This document shows, piece after piece, positions 1-32,802 of a stretch of DNA of 32,802 bases; position 1 is the stretch's first letter, and each line of letters begins with the position of its first letter. Made by a program: the position numbers and the translations under genes. Source of the stretch: a virus; IMG/VR virus record IMGVR_UViG_3300011114_000947, positions 1 through 32,802 of that record; one strand, written 5' to 3'. Under the pieces are notes generated by a model that was not told where the DNA came from, did not search any database, and worked only from the letters and a program-made list of their open reading frames with translations.

Positions 1-140
1 CGCCTCGACGCCCGCCTAACGGAGCACGGCGCTCGACACCTGGGGGGCGTACACGCCGCCTACAACCTACCGACAGAGGAATACGTGGATCTCGTCGCGC
101 ACTTGCTCACTCGAGACGCCGACGACGGGTGGAAAAACAC
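1..140. repeat. terminal overlap, left copy
   Basis: These bases recur at the right end of the window (32663-32802). Only one base differs: G at 14 against T at 32676. A coding frame runs in from the right end and continues here, so this is best read as assembly redundancy of a circular or circularly permuted genome. A true terminal repeat as in T7-like phages is less likely, because a gene would then be cut by the physical end. The single mismatch changes an amino acid in both overlapping frames and may be a population variant or a read error. Confidence 0.9.
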
Positions 141-9698: not shown

Positions 9699-9985
9699 TC
9701 CGTCACCTCCCCACGATAGTCGCCGCGTTCGACAAAGTTGGACGCATCGAGGAGCACCAACCCGGTCAACGCATGGATCGGAGTCCAGACGCTGCTGCCG
9801 TCGCGCAGCCACCGGATGATCTCGCTGCGATCTCCGTGCGCAGCTGCGCGGAGCCTCTCGACCTCGGCGACCAGCTCGACGTTGTCAGCGAGGACCTGCG
9901 AGGCGTAGTCGGTGGTCCCCGCGTGCTGTTGCAGGGCCTGCGCCCGTGCTTTGATGTTGTCGAGGTTGATCACGTTGCCTCCCAT
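9695..9985 (-). CDS. small protein, tandem paralogue B
   Basis: A 96-residue protein overlapping the end of the DNA polymerase gene by 16 bases. It begins MGGNVINLDNIKARAQALQQ and has an LVAEVERLRAAA helix, then IIRWLRDGSS, and ends NFVERGDYRGEVTE. The shared LVAEVERL, WLR and VERGDYRGEV/IERGDHRREV segments show it is a paralogue of the downstream gene. Function is unknown; no DNA-binding or catalytic motif was recognised. Confidence 0.7.
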   Translation of the reverse strand: MGGNVINLDNIKARAQALQQHAGTTDYASQVLADNVELVAEVERLRAAAHGDRSEIIRWLRDGSSVWTPIHALTGLVLLDASNFVERGDYRGEVTE

Positions 9986-12054
9986 ACCTGCAAGCGGCTA
10001 CTAACATCGCGGCGTTCGTCGGCGGATTTGCTCCACACGCGGAACATGCTGGGCTCGACCTTGACCGGTACGTCGGGCATATATTGTTGCATGCCAGCCA
10101 CCATCACCGCGCACATCCGCTCGCAGGCCTCGGCAGCACGCGCCTCGGGTGCCTCAAAAATAAACTCATCGTGAATCTCGATGACCGGTCGGCATCCAAA
10201 CAGCGGACTTGTTTGGTGCGGGTGGTAAAGTCGCCGCTCCCAAAACACCCCGAAACCTGTGTAGCACTCTGCCGACGCTGCAAATAGCGCCGCCTTCATA
10301 CCGTCGGCGGTCAAGCCCTGAAAGTACGAGTTGCAACCCTGACTGTAGTTACACCCGCCGCGCAGGCGACCGCTACGGGGCTGGACCAACGTAAACTCGC
10401 CACCACCACGCTCGACACGGTCCCCGACGTCGGCGAAAAACCGGCGCATTTCCGGCCAGCGGTTGAGCCACGCGGACTTGAACGACGCCGCGATCTCAAC
10501 GGCCTCGACGGGGTCGTCGCCGAAGATCGCCCGGAAGTCTGCCTTGCTGATTTGCTTTTTGACCGTCGCAACAAACTTTTCCGGGCCCATCCCGCCGGGG
10601 AACCCAAAGTTGATCTGCTTTGCGGCCTGCCGCATGACGCTGACTTGCGGATCTTTGGCTTTGCGGCGGGAAACCGCCTCCTCGTAGGGAATACCCAGCA
10701 GGTCCGCAGCAAGGGCGGTGTGCAGGTCGCGCCCGGCTTTAAGCGCCGCCGCCATTTCGCTGTGCCACCCTTGATCAAGGCAGTGCTGCGCGAGCGCCAC
10801 CAACTCAATACCGGAGTAGTCCGCCTGGACAAACACGGTGCCCGGTCGCGACTCGACGCACTCCCGATAGCCCCCGGCTTTGGGCAGGTTCTGGAGGTTC
10901 AGCGGCTTGCCGCACGACGTCCTCCCCGACTCCACCAGCACGTTGAAACGGGCGGTAATCGGGTGGTCGCTGCCGCTGCGCAGCGGCTCGATGTACGTTG
11001 CCAAGTTGTGCTCATCGGCGCTGATCGACGCCAACGCCAACAGGATCGGGACGTCTTGTTCGCTACGCTCCCCGGTGAGCTCATCGCTCATCCACACCCG
11101 CACGGTAGGCTGGCGGCGAGTGGGGGCAGCGAGCAGCACTTCTTTAGCCGTGCTGGTCTTGCCCCCTGCGGTTTGCGGTGCCTCGAGCCCCTCGGAGGCG
11201 TAGGCGTCGGCGACCTCGCGAGCGAGGCGCACCGTGTCCTTTGATCCGTCCTTGAACCGGAACAGGGTGCCGGTCAGCGCATCCCGCACGCTGCGGCTGT
11301 TCTCCTCGAGCAGCTGCGCGAGCGCATCGACTTTGGCGCGGTTGGTCCGCACTCCCCATGCCGACATCAGCTTGAGGGCAAAGTCCGCCGCCGCCTGCGA
11401 CTGCTCATCCGTAACCATCCCGGTTACCGCATCCACGACGCCGCTATGCGTATCCGAGGCCTGCGCGCACCACATTTGGTACGTCTGGTGGACGTCGCGG
11501 ATGGGGTACTCGCGTGCCTCGGTGGGCCACTGGTCAAGCGGCACGCCGTCGAGCTCGGCGTACCGCAAGCGCCACGCATCGGGCGCGGCCTTGTCGTCGC
11601 TGAGATCGACGCCGAACCGGGTGAGCATGATCGCCGCCATCGAGAACGACCCCTGCTTTTTGCTGCCAAAGTCGCTTGAGAAGTTTCCCAGCGCCAACTG
11701 GATCAGCTGCTCGCGGATTTGCGTGCAGCTCACGCGCCCGTGAGCGTAGGCCTCAAAAATCCACGGCACCAGCGAGGGGTCCGCAGCGCCGCAAACGGCG
11801 AGATCGTAGGCGACGTTGTGGCCGACGATCCGGGTATGCGGGTCCAGCAGCGCGAGGCGCAGATCGTGGATCCCCTCTGCTTTGTTGTGCAGCGTGCCGC
11901 CCTCGACGTCGGGGAGCGGGCCGCTACTGCCGATGCGCGTGGGCCAAACACGCAGCGACGACAGGCAAACCAGCGGCGGTACGGGCAAACCGGGTTGGAT
12001 GAGATGTGTCTCGGTGTCGAATACATAGAGATTGAGGCGAGTGGTGGAGTTCAT
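9970..12054 (-). CDS. polA-like: family A DNA polymerase with 3'-5' exonuclease
   Basis: A 694-residue replicative or repair polymerase of the Pol I/T7 type. Exonuclease motifs are present: FDTET (Asp13, Glu15), GHNVAYD (Asp84) and YPIRD (Tyr183, Asp187). Polymerase motif A is ADYSGIELVALA (Asp412), motif B is RQAAKQINFGFPGG (Lys479, Phe483) and motif C is HDE at 628-630. Phe483 matches E. coli Phe762, predicting discrimination against dideoxynucleotides. The residue at the E. coli Tyr766 position is Gly487, which is unusual. No 5'-nuclease domain is seen. There is no clear Shine-Dalgarno: a strong hairpin ends a few bases before the ATG. Confidence 0.95.
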   Translation of the reverse strand: MNSTTRLNLYVFDTETHLIQPGLPVPPLVCLSSLRVWPTRIGSSGPLPDVEGGTLHNKAEGIHDLRLALLDPHTRIVGHNVAYDLAVCGAADPSLVPWIFEAYAHGRVSCTQIREQLIQLALGNFSSDFGSKKQGSFSMAAIMLTRFGVDLSDDKAAPDAWRLRYAELDGVPLDQWPTEAREYPIRDVHQTYQMWCAQASDTHSGVVDAVTGMVTDEQSQAAADFALKLMSAWGVRTNRAKVDALAQLLEENSRSVRDALTGTLFRFKDGSKDTVRLAREVADAYASEGLEAPQTAGGKTSTAKEVLLAAPTRRQPTVRVWMSDELTGERSEQDVPILLALASISADEHNLATYIEPLRSGSDHPITARFNVLVESGRTSCGKPLNLQNLPKAGGYRECVESRPGTVFVQADYSGIELVALAQHCLDQGWHSEMAAALKAGRDLHTALAADLLGIPYEEAVSRRKAKDPQVSVMRQAAKQINFGFPGGMGPEKFVATVKKQISKADFRAIFGDDPVEAVEIAASFKSAWLNRWPEMRRFFADVGDRVERGGGEFTLVQPRSGRLRGGCNYSQGCNSYFQGLTADGMKAALFAASAECYTGFGVFWERRLYHPHQTSPLFGCRPVIEIHDEFIFEAPEARAAEACERMCAVMVAGMQQYMPDVPVKVEPSMFRVWSKSADERRDVSSRLQVWEAT

Positions 12055-17483: not shown

Positions 17484-19982
17484 TTAGTATGGTACGCCGT
17501 CGGAGTCGGGCACGAATGCCATGACCGGTGCAGAAGCTGGGGTAGTCGGCGCATATTTGGGGACGTCGGTAATACGCGAACCCTTTGGACCGACCGCATG
17601 TTTTTTCTTGGCGGCGTCGGGGTGCCATACCCAGCAGCGCCTCGCGCCGGTGGTCCGCTTGGTCCAGCCGAATCGGATCATAGCGAGGCCGATGTTCGTT
17701 CCGTTCGGTCTCGCAGCGCCAAAGCAAAGCGCGGCGACTTTCTCGAGCAGGTCGCTCGCGCTCCACTCCGTCTGGATGTGCTTCGTGACGACCTGGTACA
17801 CCGCATCCTCGACGGAGTCGTCGGCGAGGTACTGCTGGTTACGCACTCCGATCTCCGTCTGCTGCTCCGCTGAAGGCCACCACGGCACGCCCGCCGCAAC
17901 CTTGGCGTCGGCCTCGGCCCAAAGCTGCGGCGCGACCTCTCTAACTCTCGCGAGGTCGATGCGTCCGCTGCGTACCTCAAGCGTCCAAAACCGGCGGTTC
18001 TCGCTGCTGCGGTCAACGAGGTAGAGCTTCACGTTGGTGTTGCCGAAAAACACGCATTGACGGGGGATGTCCTCCAACTCTTTGCCGTGCATCCGGACGC
18101 CGGTATCGCGCCGGCGGTCAATGAAAGTCATATATTCAACGTGGTTTTTCCACGTTGGCATCTCTGCCATTTCGTGGATGAGGTAGTTGGGGAGCACCAT
18201 AATCGAGCGTTTTTCATCCTGTGGCACCGGCGCGGGGTTGAACCACGACTCATCGGGGCAGAGACTACGGAGCAGCTCAGTTTTGCCCTCGCCACCGTCG
18301 GCGGCGTACAACACCAGCATCGAGTCCGCTTTGCTGCCGGGCTTGCGGGCGCGGACCACCGCCGACATCATCCACCACATGAGGCCGCGGGCGTTGTAGG
18401 TGTCCTCCGACGCATCGGGCGCAGCACCAAACAAGGCGCGGGCCTCCTCCGTGAAACGCTCGGTGCCGTCCCACGACAGCGAGTCGAAATAATCGACAAT
18501 CGGGTTGCGCTGGTCCTCGCTGGCGCGGGCGTAGATCGCCTCGCGGGTGTCGAGCAGGGTGGGGTGGATGTCCTGGGCGTCCAACTGCACGCGGACCTCG
18601 CGGGTGAGCGCGTCGGTGAGCGGCGACGACTTGCCCTCCTCGGACTCCACCATCACGCGGCGCTTGAAACTATCGGTCCAGAACATCCGGTCAAACGGCT
18701 GCTGGGACAAAGCACGCACGACGTTTCCAAAGGTGGACTCGGGGCGGTTGTTGCTATTCATCCGCAAGCCACCGCCGCCGACCGATGCGGCTTGCTGGGC
18801 TCGCGCCGCCTGTTTGGCGGCGGCGTCTGCTGCGCGAGCTGCTGCGCGGGTGTGCTGCGTCATCGCCGCGACGACAGCGCGGCGGGCGTTGGTGGAGTTC
18901 AGCGCCACCCCGATAGTAGTCGCGTGCCTCATCGCCAGCCCGGTGAGGACGCCGACGTCGAGCACACCCGCTGCGAGGAGCGCGGAAAGGTACGCTTTGG
19001 CGTCGGAGCCTCGCGACAGCGCCTCGAGGTTGAGGTCTCCGTTGTGCGCGGCTACGGTCTCAACGTCGCCGGCCTCGACGTCGCTATGCGGTGCGTCGGC
19101 GGCAAGGGTTGGCGTCCGCTTGCGGAACGCGCCGGCGATGCTCGCGCCGACGTCCTCGGAGGCCCCCGCCTGTAGGCCGCGAGCGAACGCGGACGTGTGA
19201 TCCTTGCTGCCCTGCTCGCTCCACTGCGACTGGACGTGGGCGAACACCGCCAAAGCCACCGCAGGGGCCAGCGTACGCGCCCCAACCCGCAGGCCTGCCC
19301 GATACCCCTGCGCGTTGGCAACATCGTTCCGCTTGCCGCGTGGCGTAGCGAGCAACAGGGCGGCGACGTCGTCGAGCGCGTCGAGCGACTCCAGCGATGT
19401 CTCGACGTCGGTGTAGTCCTCGAGGTCCACCGGGTGCGCGGCGTGCTGGTGGGTGGCGTTGTAGCGGGGGAGCAGCGCGTGGTACTGCATCGGCAACTCT
19501 GCGAGCTGCGCACGGGGTGGCGGCACGAAATCGAAGTGGACGCACGAATACCCACCGTTGCTGCGGATATCGAAGCCGTCGATACCCAACACCCGCGCAC
19601 CGATGCCCAGCTCGTAGCCCTCGCCGTCGGGGTACTGGTACCAGAGGTGGAACCCACCGCCGGCGGTCTCGTCGCGGTAGGTATCTGGCAAAGTCCAGTT
19701 GAGGCGTTGGAACACCTCGGCGGCAATCAGGCCCTGCGTGGGCTTGCTGTCAAAATCCAACATTACCACCCCGTCGCACACCGCGATGGAGGGGATGGCG
19801 TTGGGGTTGCTGGTCCACCAGTTGCGGATCACCTGGGGATCTCGCGTCCCTGCTTTCCATCCGTTGGCGGTTAGCGGTTTCTTGTCGTGCCCGCAGGGAA
19901 ACACATAGTAGCCGTTGGCTGCGGCCTCGAGGGCGACGTCGAGGCGTGGACGGTTGCGAGTCTGTAGGGTAGGGGAGTACAT
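17484..19982 (-). CDS. primase-polymerase fused to VirE-type helicase
   Basis: An 832-residue replication protein. The ATG at 19982 is preferred over a TTG directly before it; AAGG lies six bases upstream. The N-terminal 200 residues are an archaeo-eukaryotic primase (prim-pol): VMLDFDS with the DxD pair at 76 and 78, and GGGFHLWYQ with the conserved His near 112. A middle Ala-rich linker (AAARAADAAAKQAARAQQ) leads to a C-terminal SF3/VirE-like ATPase: WDGTERF, ADGGEGKTELL (Walker A Lys567), IHEMAEM (Walker B region) and FFGNTN. Such proteins prime and unwind at phage or plasmid origins. It is the first large leftward gene next to the proposed origin. Confidence 0.88.
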   Translation of the reverse strand: MYSPTLQTRNRPRLDVALEAAANGYYVFPCGHDKKPLTANGWKAGTRDPQVIRNWWTSNPNAIPSIAVCDGVVMLDFDSKPTQGLIAAEVFQRLNWTLPDTYRDETAGGGFHLWYQYPDGEGYELGIGARVLGIDGFDIRSNGGYSCVHFDFVPPPRAQLAELPMQYHALLPRYNATHQHAAHPVDLEDYTDVETSLESLDALDDVAALLLATPRGKRNDVANAQGYRAGLRVGARTLAPAVALAVFAHVQSQWSEQGSKDHTSAFARGLQAGASEDVGASIAGAFRKRTPTLAADAPHSDVEAGDVETVAAHNGDLNLEALSRGSDAKAYLSALLAAGVLDVGVLTGLAMRHATTIGVALNSTNARRAVVAAMTQHTRAAARAADAAAKQAARAQQAASVGGGGLRMNSNNRPESTFGNVVRALSQQPFDRMFWTDSFKRRVMVESEEGKSSPLTDALTREVRVQLDAQDIHPTLLDTREAIYARASEDQRNPIVDYFDSLSWDGTERFTEEARALFGAAPDASEDTYNARGLMWWMMSAVVRARKPGSKADSMLVLYAADGGEGKTELLRSLCPDESWFNPAPVPQDEKRSIMVLPNYLIHEMAEMPTWKNHVEYMTFIDRRRDTGVRMHGKELEDIPRQCVFFGNTNVKLYLVDRSSENRRFWTLEVRSGRIDLARVREVAPQLWAEADAKVAAGVPWWPSAEQQTEIGVRNQQYLADDSVEDAVYQVVTKHIQTEWSASDLLEKVAALCFGAARPNGTNIGLAMIRFGWTKRTTGARRCWVWHPDAAKKKHAVGPKGSRITDVPKYAPTTPASAPVMAFVPDSDGVPY

Positions 19983-20013: not shown

Positions 20014-20047
20014 GTGGCCGGTGTAGCGTGGTGGCTATGCCGGCCAC
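20014..20047 (-). repeat. inverted repeat between regulator and primase
   Basis: GTGGCCGG (20014-20021) and CCGGCCAC (20040-20047) are perfect 8-base arms around an 18-base loop. It lies in the 81-base gap between the regulator stop and the primase-helicase start. It could be an operator of the ribbon-helix-helix protein or an RNA hairpin that sets primase expression. No T run follows on the minus strand, so termination is unlikely. Confidence 0.6.
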
Positions 20048-20063: not shown

Positions 20064-20228
20064 CTACGGCAGAGAGGGTAGGGCAACCTGCCCCGTGAGC
20101 ACAAGCTCGAGCACGCGGCTGAACGACAGGCCGCTCTGCTCGACCAGCTGTTGCAGCTGCTCGCGGATGCGTGGATCGAGGGTGACAGCGACGACAGGTC
20201 GGCGACGTTTCTGGGGTGTGGTGGACAT
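20064..20228 (-). CDS. ribbon-helix-helix DNA-binding protein
   Basis: A 54-residue protein. After a basic start (QKRRRP) the strand PVVAVTLDPR is followed by helix IREQLQQLVEQSG, then LSFSRVLELVLTGQV. This is the Arc/CopG/MetJ ribbon-helix-helix plan: an alternating beta strand that dimerises and reads the major groove, then two helices around an SG-LS turn. It is the first gene leftward from the proposed origin. No Shine-Dalgarno is present, and the promoter found at 20235-20263 would start the mRNA at about the ATG. Probably a repressor or copy regulator acting on the neighbouring repeats; that is inferred from position. Confidence 0.75.
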   Translation of the reverse strand: MSTTPQKRRRPVVAVTLDPRIREQLQQLVEQSGLSFSRVLELVLTGQVALPSLP

Positions 20229-20234
20229 GCAGAG

Positions 20235-20263
20235 AGTATGACACCGCCGGTCGAGGTGGTCAA
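20235..20263 (-). promoter_or_regulatory. leftward promoter, probably giving a leaderless mRNA
   Basis: On the minus strand TTGACC (20258-20263; 5 of 6) is followed after exactly 17 bases by CATACT (20235-20240; 4 of 6). Only six bases separate the -10 box from the A of the regulator ATG at 20228, which is where transcription should start. No ribosome-binding site lies between. Hence a leaderless transcript, as known for lambda cI from PRM. Confidence 0.6.
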
Positions 20264-20434
20264 GGCACCGTCGATGGTGTTTGTTTTGACGGCCCTGTCA
20301 CTTTCCACGCCTTACGGGTTTGATACGGGTTTGAAACGGGTTTCGCGAGGTTGGAGCGCGATGTTTACGGGTTACGGGTTTTTTGCCTCAGACCTGATGG
20401 AGAGACACCCCCCACCACCCCACCCCCCTACTGC

Positions 20435-20467
20435 ATATAGATATAGGAATATAGATATAGGTATAGG
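20435..20467. repeat. AT-rich direct repeats at the centre of the palindrome
   Basis: ATATAGATATAGG occurs at 20435-20447 and again at 20449-20461, followed by a partial TATAGG to 20467. This is the only strongly AT-rich stretch of this length noticed in the region, and it sits at the symmetry centre of the large inverted repeat. It is a candidate DNA unwinding element. Confidence 0.75.
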
Positions 20468-20469
20468 CA

Positions 20470-20497
20470 GGGGTAGGGGGGTGGGGGTGGGGGGTGG
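20470..20497 (+). other. G-quadruplex motif
   Basis: Four G runs of 4, 6, 5 and 6 bases are separated by TA, T and T. Such short loops predict a very stable parallel quadruplex on the plus strand. The mirrored C-rich tract at 20406-20430 makes the minus strand G-rich on the other side of the AT core, so quadruplexes could form on opposite strands flanking the core. Confidence 0.7.
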
Positions 20498-20636
20498 TAC
20501 CCCTCCCTGCTTTGCGGCTCTGAGGCAAAAAACCCGTAACCCGTAAAGGTTTCGGTAGAACCTCGGATAGCCCGTTTCAAACCCGTATCAAACCCGTAAG
20601 GCGCTCGAGCCCTGCGCGCCGCGTTAGGAGGTTGGA

Positions 20637-21191
20637 ATGACCACCACTCTGAGCATTGACGCAGGGCTTCACGGCTTAGGCTGCGGACTATTTGACGGAT
20701 CCGAACTTATAGCCGCTTGGTATGCCTCGCCGGGCGGTTATGGGCGGGGACCGGCCCGTTGGCGCGCAGTTATAACCGCCGGGCTTGCCCCTCTGCGCAT
20801 AATCCCCAACACGGTGGTCATAGAGACCATGCAAATCTATAATCGGGCGTCATCGCGGGGTGACCCTGCCGATATTCTGGAGGTGCAGGGGGTGTGCGGC
20901 GCTATATCTGGGTGGGGTCCGTTCGCCGGTGCAGAGCTGGTCGGCTACGCGCCTCGCGAGTGGAAAGGGGCGGTGCCCCAGGCGGTCTACGCCGCCCGGG
21001 TGGACGCCTACCTCGCGAGGCGCGGGTGGAGCGGAAGATTGTCACCGCACCCAGCTGCGCGGCACCACGACGTCGCCCACGGCATCGGGGTAGGCCTGCA
21101 TCACCTCGGTCTTGTCGTCGCTGGGAAAAGCTGCTACCCTGCCCCCCGGCCTGTCGTTGTAGCGCCTCCTCTGAGCGTGCCTACCACTTGA
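20637..21191 (+). CDS. RuvC-like Holliday junction resolvase
   Basis: A 184-residue protein with an RNase H-like fold. SIDAGLHGLGCGLF gives the first catalytic Asp8 in the position of the RuvC D-P-G motif, NTVVIETMQIY gives Glu63, and RHHDVAHGIGVGLHHLG gives the C-terminal acidic residue Asp145. Phage RuvC-like enzymes cut branched DNA before packaging, and this gene directly precedes the terminase genes. AGGAGG lies at 20626-20631. It is the first gene of the rightward block. The last 25 residues are Pro-rich and probably not part of the fold. Confidence 0.75.
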   Translation: MTTTLSIDAGLHGLGCGLFDGSELIAAWYASPGGYGRGPARWRAVITAGLAPLRIIPNTVVIETMQIYNRASSRGDPADILEVQGVCGAISGWGPFAGAELVGYAPREWKGAVPQAVYAARVDAYLARRGWSGRLSPHPAARHHDVAHGIGVGLHHLGLVVAGKSCYPAPRPVVVAPPLSVPTT

Positions 21192-21634
21192 ACACTCCCC
21201 GCACACAACTGACCACCCTCCAGCTCGCGTGCATTCAGCACCTCGTAGCGGATGGGTGGAGTGTGCAGCAATGCCTCGACAAGTACCACATCCCAAAGAG
21301 CACTTGGTACAACCAGTGGCGCAACGACGGGCGTTTCCTTCCGGCCATCGAGGACGCCAAGCGAGTGCAGCGCGAGGGCGTTTGGGCCTCCATCGCCGCC
21401 AGCGGCGTACGAGCTGCGCAGGTGCTCGACTCGATCATGATGGACCCGATGAGCAAAGAGAGCGTGCGCGTCCAAGCCGCTACCACGCTGCTGGACCGCA
21501 GCGGCTACACCAAAGCGGAGCCCGTCGCGGCAGAGGTCCAGCCCTACACAACCCGCGACGAAATGGTGCAGGCATTGGCCGCCATCCCCGTCGATGTGCT
21601 CGAAGCCGCGCTGGCCGCTCGAGCTAAGCCATGA
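21188..21634 (+). CDS. terS: terminase small subunit
   Basis: A 148-residue protein read from the TTG at 21188, which overlaps the resolvase stop (TTGA); the longer open frame upstream lies over the resolvase gene. The N-terminal helix-turn-helix reads SVQQCLDKYHIPKSTWYNQW, as in small terminases that recognise the packaging site. It continues with a helical middle (AAQVLDSIMMDP, AATTLLDRSGYT) and ends in the terminase large subunit gene by ATGA overlap. Neighbouring TerL makes the call firm. Confidence 0.8.
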   Translation: MNTPRTQLTTLQLACIQHLVADGWSVQQCLDKYHIPKSTWYNQWRNDGRFLPAIEDAKRVQREGVWASIAASGVRAAQVLDSIMMDPMSKESVRVQAATTLLDRSGYTKAEPVAAEVQPYTTRDEMVQALAAIPVDVLEAALAARAKP

Positions 21635-22956
21635 TGCTGCGCGTCCTCGCCACGCTGCGCGACCGGCAGCTGATGCTGTTCCAGGCCTCGCCGGCGCTGG
21701 TGGGGTTCATGCGTTCGAGCTCGAGGCGGCAGCTGGTGCGCGCCGCCAACCGCGTTGGCAAAACCAAACACGCCGCTGCCAAACTTGCGCGCCTTATGCT
21801 CGACAAGCCCGGCGGTCGATATCGCGCCGTCGCCGTTAACTACCAGCAGAGCATCGCCGTCGTCGGGCAGTACCTCTGCAACTTTCTGCCTGCCGACCAA
21901 CTTGCGCCTAACTGTCGATTCAGTTTGGAGAACGGTTGGACGCATCAGTTGATCGTGCTGCGCAACGGCACGACGTGTGAGATCCGCAGCTGCGAACAGG
22001 CGGCGATCTCCCATGCGGGTAGCGACCTCGACGGCGTGTGGCTCGATGAGGTACCCCCCAGCTTTATTCTCCAAGAGAACCTGTACCGCGTCAAAGCGCG
22101 CGACGGTTGGGTCTGGATCACGGCTACGCCCATCGGTCGCCCGGTCGAGTACCTCCGCAAGGTCATTGCCGACGAAGACACCACCTGGGTGGAACACGTC
22201 GCACCGTTGAGCGCGGCCAACTGCCCGTGGTACTCCGAGGCGCAGGTCGAAGCGTGGATCACGGAGGCGCGGTTGTTCCCCGACTCGTACGAGCAGCGGA
22301 TCAACGGCGCTTGGGAAGGCACCACCAGCGAGCGGACGTTCAGCGGGTTCGACAGCACTTGTCTGATCAATGCCGATCACCCACTACCCAAAGCGTGCCG
22401 CATCGGCGTAGGCCTCGACCACGGGGAGCACGCGGGCAGTCAAGTCGCCGTGTTAATCGCGTGGAACAGCGACGGCGTGTGGGCGCTCGATGAGGAGGTC
22501 TCGACCAAAGCCACGACGCCTGCGGACGATGCCAAAGCGGTGCGGCGGATGTTGTTGCGGAATGGCATGGACATCCACCAAGTCGACGTTTGGATCGGCG
22601 ACATCAACTCGGCGGGCAAAGCGCAGGCGGGTTTCCGGGTCAACGACGTCCTCGCGTACGAGCTCGCGAAGGACGCCGGCCACCATCGGCAAGGCTTTAC
22701 CATCGGGACGCCAGTCAAGGGCAAGGGCAGCGTAGACTACGGCGAGAAGCTGCTCAACTCTGCTTTCCTGTTACACAAGCTATGGATCGCCCCTCGATGT
22801 GTTGCGATCATCAAAGGGCTCAAGCATAGCAAAGGCGCAAAGTCCGATGAGGACCTCAAACACGCGCTCGACGCTCTGCGGTATATCGCCTATGCCCCCC
22901 TCTCTGCTATGACGGGTCAACGCAACGCCGCAACCCGCTATCAACTGTCACTTTAG
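21631..22956 (+). CDS. terL: terminase large subunit
   Basis: A 441-residue packaging motor with ATPase and nuclease domains. Walker A is NRVGKT (40-45, Lys44), Walker B is GVWLDE with Asp139 and Glu140, and ITATPIG is the coupling motif. The RNase H-like nuclease acids are Asp263 (VGLDHGE), Asp324 (GDINS) and Asp414 (HALDALRY). It pumps DNA into the prohead and cuts the concatemer. The circularly permuted look of the contig would fit headful packaging, but the TerL class was not determined. Confidence 0.95.
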   Translation: MMLRVLATLRDRQLMLFQASPALVGFMRSSSRRQLVRAANRVGKTKHAAAKLARLMLDKPGGRYRAVAVNYQQSIAVVGQYLCNFLPADQLAPNCRFSLENGWTHQLIVLRNGTTCEIRSCEQAAISHAGSDLDGVWLDEVPPSFILQENLYRVKARDGWVWITATPIGRPVEYLRKVIADEDTTWVEHVAPLSAANCPWYSEAQVEAWITEARLFPDSYEQRINGAWEGTTSERTFSGFDSTCLINADHPLPKACRIGVGLDHGEHAGSQVAVLIAWNSDGVWALDEEVSTKATTPADDAKAVRRMLLRNGMDIHQVDVWIGDINSAGKAQAGFRVNDVLAYELAKDAGHHRQGFTIGTPVKGKGSVDYGEKLLNSAFLLHKLWIAPRCVAIIKGLKHSKGAKSDEDLKHALDALRYIAYAPLSAMTGQRNAATRYQLSL

Positions 22957-32211: not shown

Positions 32212-32681
32212 AGACGCGTTCCAAGCCGCTGGTGCTCCCAACGCCGCTCCCCGACCGGTACTGGCAGTTGACCGTCGAGGATCGGGGCCTGCTCACGTTC
32301 CGCCACCCCTACTACGGTGTTGCCAGCGCGGTGGTGCAGTGCCTCATCGCGCACCGCGAGGACGACGCAGGGCTAAGCCCGCAGGCCACCGCAGAGCGGA
32401 TGCTGCCAATGTGCGGATTGGTGATCGGAGCGTGCTGGTACGACCACTCGCTCGAGCTCGAGACTCAGCTGGACCTCGGCAAGCTCCACGACGCCGACCT
32501 TGTAGCGTACGGTCACCGGGTGTGCGAGGAGCTACAGGATGCGGGGTGGTCGCTGCTCGACCTCGTTGAGCTACTCGGTGGCATCGCGCCAGAGCTGTAC
32601 AAGCGGCAACTGCTGCTGAACATGGCGATGGCACGCTCCAGTTTTTCCGCAGCCCCGCAGGACGCCTCGACGCCCTCCTAA
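32208..32681 (+). CDS. tail assembly chaperone, short form (G-like)
   Basis: A 157-residue protein ending in a low-complexity tail (SSFSAAPQDASTPS). The core is helical with LVAYGHRVCEELQDAGW then LLDLVELLGGIAPELYKRQ. It lies between tail tube and tape measure in the order expected for G. From 32570 a second open frame in -1 register overlaps its end without a start codon. Slippage at the T run 32642-32646 would give a 237-residue long form: 146 residues of this frame plus 91 of the next. The role as chaperone of tail assembly is inferred from order and this frame layout. Confidence 0.7.
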   Translation: MKTRSKPLVLPTPLPDRYWQLTVEDRGLLTFRHPYYGVASAVVQCLIAHREDDAGLSPQATAERMLPMCGLVIGACWYDHSLELETQLDLGKLHDADLVAYGHRVCEELQDAGWSLLDLVELLGGIAPELYKRQLLLNMAMARSSFSAAPQDASTPS

Positions 32682-32802
32682 CGGAGCACGGCGCTCGACA
32701 CCTGGGGGGCGTACACGCCGCCTACAACCTACCGACAGAGGAATACGTGGATCTCGTCGCGCACTTGCTCACTCGAGACGCCGACGACGGGTGGAAAAAC
32801 AC
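32570..32802 (+). CDS. tail assembly chaperone -1 frame extension (5' part)
   Basis: This frame opens after a TGA at 32567-32569 and runs open to the contig end, then continues from base 1 to 258. It contains no ATG, GTG or TTG before the chaperone stop, so it can hardly start alone. Past the T run it reads FFRSPAGRLDALLTEHGARH. Taken with its other part it makes a 91-residue extension to the short form. Confidence 0.7.
32642..32648 (+). promoter_or_regulatory. candidate -1 ribosomal slip site
   Basis: T-TTT-TCC in the zero frame: the Phe codon TTT in the P site can re-pair one base back with TTT, and the A-site TCC would shift to TTC with one mismatch. It is the only homopolymer run fitting a -1 slip within the overlap 32570-32681. 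The A-site fit is not perfect, so the exact site is uncertain. Confidence 0.5.
32663..32802. repeat. terminal overlap, right copy
   Basis: Same as bases 1-140 except T at 32676. In the chaperone frame this base makes Ser, against Ala in the left copy; in the -1 frame it makes Leu, against Arg. See the left copy for the circular interpretation. Confidence 0.9.

Follow-up and report, generated by a model that had tools for sequence, protein, structure and literature searches.

In a virus record of 32,802 nucleotides (IMG/VR IMGVR_UViG_3300011114_000947, positions 1 to 32,802; hereafter the window, meaning this whole stretch) we found that a large interrupted palindrome with an A+T-rich core, lying beside an operon for a primase-helicase, is probably a replication origin similar in design to those of phage-inducible chromosomal islands (PICIs), although carried by an autonomous tailed phage. 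A prior inspection of the letters alone (the sequence-only reading) had proposed this site as a candidate origin of unusual design. Its candidacy was supported by the co-location of two-orientation repeats, an A+T core and a helicase gene in most related lineages, by the core being an A+T maximum, and by a match of the helicase fold to PriRep1. As the window encodes a terminase, a portal-like protein, a tape measure protein and a family-A DNA polymerase (PolA, 9970-12054), we regard it as an autonomous tailed phage and not a PICI satellite.

In PICI origins, an A+T region adjoining the initiator gene is bordered by two sets of iterons (PMC6092414), and in the Rep protein of the related SaPIs (Staphylococcus aureus pathogenicity islands) the iterons are read by the C-terminal domain (PMC7581432). 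The window resembles these systems (EcCICFT073 and SaPIbov1) in having two iteron sets around an A+T-rich region next to a gene of the Rep/Pri-Rep type for a primase and self-loading helicase, with DNA reading proposed for the C-terminus. It also resembles EcCICFT073 in repeat orientation, since the origin sequence of that element has TGTCTACC repeats in both orientations, some of them 9 bp apart. The claim of an unusual design therefore holds only in part, as two iteron sets flanking an A+T region are known from PICI origins. What is new is that the repeats form one strict 11-11-31-7 mirror, that C-rich and G-rich tracts face each other across the core, and that the origin lies 5' of the initiator operon rather than immediately 3' of the initiator gene. 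Unlike in PICIs and SaPIs, the operon also includes a gene for a ribbon-helix-helix (RHH) protein.

Structure of the palindrome

The two arms (Table 1) are each 85 nt long, are 87% complementary and are separated by 126 nt; the sequence-only reading had recognised the palindrome with arms of 84 bases, one short on each side. Two blocks within the arms match perfectly, one of 33 nt (20308-20340 / 20571-20603), previously given as 32, and one of 29 nt (20364-20392 / 20519-20547), as previously given. The five ACGGGTT-type repeats per arm described earlier were confirmed in mirror order, with ACGGG cores spaced 11, 11, 31 and 7 in the left arm and 7, 31, 11 and 11 in the right, where one copy is degenerate (ACGGGCT). 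Nine of the 16 ACGGGTT words in the whole window fall within the palindrome region. The inner C-rich and G-rich arms (20410-20431 / 20473-20494; 22 nt, 86% complementary) do mirror each other as had been said, and the AT direct repeat reported from the middle of the palindrome was found as two copies of ATATAGATATAGG, at 20435 and 20449 within the A+T core. The palindrome is not a product of chance, given that its best 40-mer inverted repeat had 36 matches (40 local shuffles gave no more than 26, and other tiles of the genome no more than 27) and that its single-strand folding gave z = -17.65. Canonical quadruplex (G4) motifs near the core were found in the window and one close relative only, and on one strand only, which leaves the earlier suggestion that quadruplexes on opposite strands hold the core open without support.

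The same arms with the same repeat spacings are present in contig 3300036978_000557 (contig 557), whose primase-helicase is 86% identical to that of the window. When the 26-base spacers that separate the third repeat from the fourth were compared between the two genomes, left matched left and right matched right, and left did not match right. This arm-for-arm agreement argues strongly that the palindrome is old and is not an assembly duplication, and the persistence of layout and spacings in contig 557, while the spacers differ between arms, indicates that the repeats are the part that is kept. Judged by these alignments, the arms have long existed without being homogenised, and the repeats in both arms have been kept alike. 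The ends of the window (1-140 / 32663-32802) form a 140-base overlap that is identical apart from one mismatch (T/G). This suggests circular closure with a strain variant, and the window is a complete-looking virus record.

Two-orientation repeats in related genomes

A DNA similarity search against annotated phage records gave no match to the window, and alignment of the primase-helicase against genome contigs gave no relative; relatives were gathered through the large terminase (TerL), which was about 70% identical in clade B (67-71% for clades B and C), 67% in clade C and 51-53% in clade D. Among relatives with TerL 51-71% identical, all but one still have an A+T core between two-orientation repeats next to the gene for a prim-pol/VapE-like helicase, with repeat sequence and gene direction varying between lineages. 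Clade B has GATCAACA to the left and GTGTTGATC to the right of the core CTCCTATACGTAT, the clade C core CTCCCTATATCTAC is surrounded by AGGTGTGCA-type repeats pointing both ways, and L031 (TerL 53%) has TTCGTTCG / CGAACGAA around CTACTCTATAGAGTATAG. The layout, whose absence from all relatives was to count against the origin proposal, is thus present in clades A, B, C and D1, and it is unclear in clade D2. In clades A and D the helicase gene is a minus-strand gene, in clades B and C a plus-strand one, and the core adjoins it in all of them. Relative to the initiator operon, the site is 5' in contig 557, L031 and the window, and 3' in clades B and C and in L041. Of seven genomes, five have their most A+T-rich 40 bp at the core; in the other two the core ranks within 6-20 positions of the top, and paired TATAG words are nearly confined to the core in five genomes. 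Clades A, B and D1 also have in common, next to the A+T core, a C-tract that leads into TACT and TATA; this pattern (C2+..TACT..TATA) is nearly confined to the core in the window, G003, G004, G005 and G008, and is possibly a priming signal.

An unbiased mirrored-k-mer scan, which fired in 4 of 80 shuffles, found two-orientation arrays in the PolA relatives L039, L041 and L043 (PolA 36-38% identical), with weaker scores in L036 and L037. Such arrays were also found in the gap after the VapE-type helicase gene in 5 of 10 annotated phages examined there (Marinobacter phage PS3, Pseudomonas phage U5, Corynebacterium phage Adelaide, Paenibacillus phage GIW2016 and Staphylococcus phage 3A), and we conclude that two-orientation arrays beside a VapE-type helicase are widespread as a kind. 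The arrays after the VapE-type helicase gene at L086 5030-5330, L088 5330-5640, L093 4050-4420, L095 4200-4560 and L098 4230-4640 carry no origin annotation in the feature tables of these records as displayed.

Several observations weigh against reading the site as an origin of this kind. In clade D2 (L028) the TATAG core is kept and mirrored repeats are not clear, in several lineages the repeat orientations are mixed rather than clean mirrors, and the motifs outside clades A and B were picked after inspection with mismatches allowed. The arm spacings of 11 and 7 in the window compare with 9-10 bp in most relatives, and resemble the 11-bp arrays of clade B that track the RHH protein. No obvious array was seen in the gap after the VapE-type gene in Croceibacter, Bacteroides, Shewanella and Escherichia phages, a Caulobacter phage was marginal, and MW202485 (L087) had no clear array. 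GC skew, proposed earlier as a check, does switch at the site in all eight genomes, with G exceeding C on the + strand over the 6 kb left of the core and C exceeding G to the right, and the switch persists where the genes on both sides share direction. However, its sign is that of a terminus by bacterial convention, opposite to a textbook origin, and for this reason we did not count the switch as support.

What reads the arms, and other explanations

In clade B two kinds of repeats coexist: the core is surrounded by GTGTTGATC repeats, and an 11-bp-spaced array adjoins the RHH gene. The array changes with the first residues of the RHH protein, being ACATACGTTGT in L014 and L015 (strand SRFNVRF) and GTTGTGG in L011, L012, L013 and L018 (ATLHVRF), whereas the GTGTTGATC repeats are constant across the swap; L013 and L015 are 92% identical in TerL and 98% identical right of the core, and their arrays are only 49.5% identical. 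L011-L015 and L018 thus present a natural exchange of the RHH N-terminal strand together with the 11-bp array, with the rest of the RHH protein and the neighbouring repeats unchanged. Since the swap changes the array and not the core repeats, the array goes with the RHH protein and the core repeats with something else, which would most simply be the helicase. Clade A, unlike clade B, shows no RHH or repeat variation, and the window has a single repeat set with the position of initiator repeats and the 11-bp steps of RHH repeats. The arms might accordingly be sites for the 54-residue RHH protein, as an operator or as a centromere-like array controlling an adjacent origin, instead of initiator iterons, and we regard this as a minority possibility. 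It would suit the 80 bp distance from the RHH gene to the left arm, an 11-bp step between outer repeats like that of the arrays adjoining the clade B RHH gene, and the tie between array and RHH protein in the natural swap; plasmid R1 parC likewise has two sets of five 11-bp repeats bound by an RHH protein, although no partition NTPase was found among 20 proteins scanned and the window, unlike R1, has an A+T core and a prim-pol-helicase. However, the arms do not overlap the operon promoter, whereas in clade B 20-30 bp separate the array from the RHH start codon. Clade B arrays are moreover confined to one side of the core, while the window repeats flank it like initiator iterons elsewhere. Near the core of clades C and D no RHH gene was detected, yet two-orientation repeats are present; and clade A would be left without any initiator repeats. 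Because the promoter is outside the arms, the core is flanked on both sides and clades C and D are without a detected RHH gene, we favour the initiator over the RHH protein as the reader of the arms, this being the weaker step of our overall verdict. It is less likely, though conceivable, that the RHH protein reads the arms with or instead of the initiator, as a symmetric clamp enclosing a melting core with strand-specific C/G tracts on its flanks, an arrangement replacing the separate RHH array and initiator repeats of the relatives.

A mere control region, with symmetric operators between divergent early and late operons, would fit the genes on either side, which diverge in the window, contig 557, L028 and L031, and the coincidence of the skew switch with the coding-strand change in the window, but repeats and core persist in clades B and C, where helicase and terminase genes share direction, and we find this account quite improbable. 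A packaging site (pac or cos) read by the small terminase would fit the small and large terminase genes lying less than 1.3 kb away in clades A-D. The array is nonetheless apart from the terminase in other genomes, lying between the helicase and head protease genes in L041/L079 and before the prim-pol gene in L083, so that it follows the helicase rather than the terminase; in the Corynebacterium, Paenibacillus and Staphylococcus 3A phages it lies between helicase and endonuclease genes, away from the terminase. Neither an A+T melting core nor repeats tied to the helicase belong to the features of a pac site, and we hold a packaging site to be very unlikely. Assemblers often break at repeats of this sort, and the contigs of the closest relatives do break within the palindrome (starts of L003, L004 and L005). 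Contig 557 ends in the C-tract and contig 4809 starts in the right arm, as might be expected of an assembly artefact, or of a genome end with inverted terminal repeats or a hairpin telomere joined during assembly. We give this almost no credence, as the window sequence is continuous through the palindrome and its own ends overlap, the L014 and L031 contigs close elsewhere by exact 127-b overlaps, the arm spacers agree arm-for-arm between genomes, and no protelomerase-type match was found among the 20 proteins scanned. A cruciform substrate for the RuvC-like neighbour was considered and rejected, because relatives keep two-orientation repeats without long arms and because in clades B and C it is the small terminase gene that comes next after the core.

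The candidate initiator and its neighbours

A profile search with the 832-residue protein matched PDB 7pds (E 1e-66) and pRN1 ORF904 (E 1e-4), the latter similarity being confined to the prim-pol domain. A Foldseek search with its AlphaFold model gave 7pds (PriRep1 with dsDNA, E 1.2e-19), followed by the NrS-1 and SaPI5 primase-helicases, making PriRep1, a satellite-island (SaPI/PICI) initiator, the closest solved structure to the helicase. Residues 723-788 were modelled as helix-helix-helix-strand-strand with moderate confidence (block pLDDT about 55-80). The 54-residue protein was unrecognised by Pfam and PHROGs, and was assigned as RHH by its sequence pattern, its clade B homologs and a structure model.

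Symmetric binding of an initiator with two outgoing forks, as the sequence-only reading had envisaged, is plausible. The prim-pol/VapE-like helicase would use its C-terminal winged helix to bind the ACGGGTT repeats in the two arms, and would form two rings, one opposite the other, with the A+T/TATAG core between them. The rings would then melt the core, load onto and prime both strands, and send out two forks to be extended by PolA, with the RHH protein of the same operon controlling expression and perhaps initiation. Origins of the SV40 type similarly have inverted initiator sites and an A+T element with two hexamers, although T-antigen reads DNA by its N-terminal domain, unlike the C-terminal winged helix proposed here. 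Plasmid pRN1 (orf56/orf904; PMC4234260) also has an operon of a small repressor and a prim-pol/helicase, a C-terminal winged helix and an origin foldable as a large stem-loop, but is without iterons, has its stem-loop downstream of the gene and has a helicase described as SF3. According to the same source, which cites earlier work, the P4 alpha protein is a primase-helicase that reads the repeats of ori/crr by a winged helix. The P4 primase is of Toprim type, unlike that of the window.

If our reading is right, several lineages of autonomous tailed phages carry a satellite-island origin design, a point relevant to the direction of replicon transfer, whether to satellites from phages or the reverse. 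An A+T maximum with two-orientation repeats beside a VapE-type helicase gene could also serve as a recipe for finding origins in uncultured phages, and the repeat alphabets (ACGGGTT, GTGTTGATC, AGGTGTGCA, TTCGTTCG, GGATCACTT, TTGGTCC and TGTCTCA), paired with initiator C-termini, make initiator-repeat specificity testable.

Table 1. Palindrome elements and neighbouring genes in the window
Feature	Position	Strand	Remarks
Prim-pol + VapE-like helicase, proposed initiator, 832 aa	17484-19982	-	Pfam Prim-Pol 1.1e-22, VapE-like 3.6e-41
Predicted winged helix, residues 723-788, proposed repeat reader	17619-17816	-	H723-734, H742-752, H761-770, E773-778, E783-788
RHH-like regulator, 54 aa, first gene of operon	20064-20228	-	Model: helices 19-32 and 36-45
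Sigma-70-like promoter TTGACC-17-CATACT, for RHH/prim-pol-helicase operon	20235-20263	-	1 found, 0.2 expected (shuffles)
Left arm	20308-20392	+	ACGGGTT repeats (ACGGG cores) at 20314, 20325, 20336, 20367, 20374; spacing shared with relative L005
Left spacer, within 31-bp step	20341-20363	+	Unlike right spacer; matches left spacer of contig 557
Inner C-rich tract	20406-20431	+	By eye, clade B and L031 likewise have a C-tract adjoining the core
A+T core with TATAG repeats, proposed unwinding element	20435-20467	+	Most A+T-rich 40 bp of genome
Inner G-rich tract	20470-20498	+	Sole canonical + strand G4 motif of window
Right arm	20519-20603	-	AACCCGT at 20531, 20538, 20580, 20591; degenerate AGCCCGT at 20569; ACGGG cores at 20533, 20540, 20571, 20582, 20593
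Right spacer	20548-20570	-	Matches right spacer of contig 557, not left one
RuvC-like resolvase (weak assignment), first gene right of palindrome	20637-21191	+	27% identity to annotated ruvC, E 9e-5
Small-terminase-like gene, TTG start, end PYTTRDEMVQALAAIPVDVLEAAL	21188-21634	+	By-eye alignment with pre-TerL gene of clades B-D
Large terminase, query for relatives	21631-22956	+	

The right-arm spacing is the same in L004, and the outer portion of the right arm is also present in L003. Between the RHH and primase-helicase genes (20014-20047) there is a strong terminator-like hairpin of 14 pairs with a T run on the + strand.
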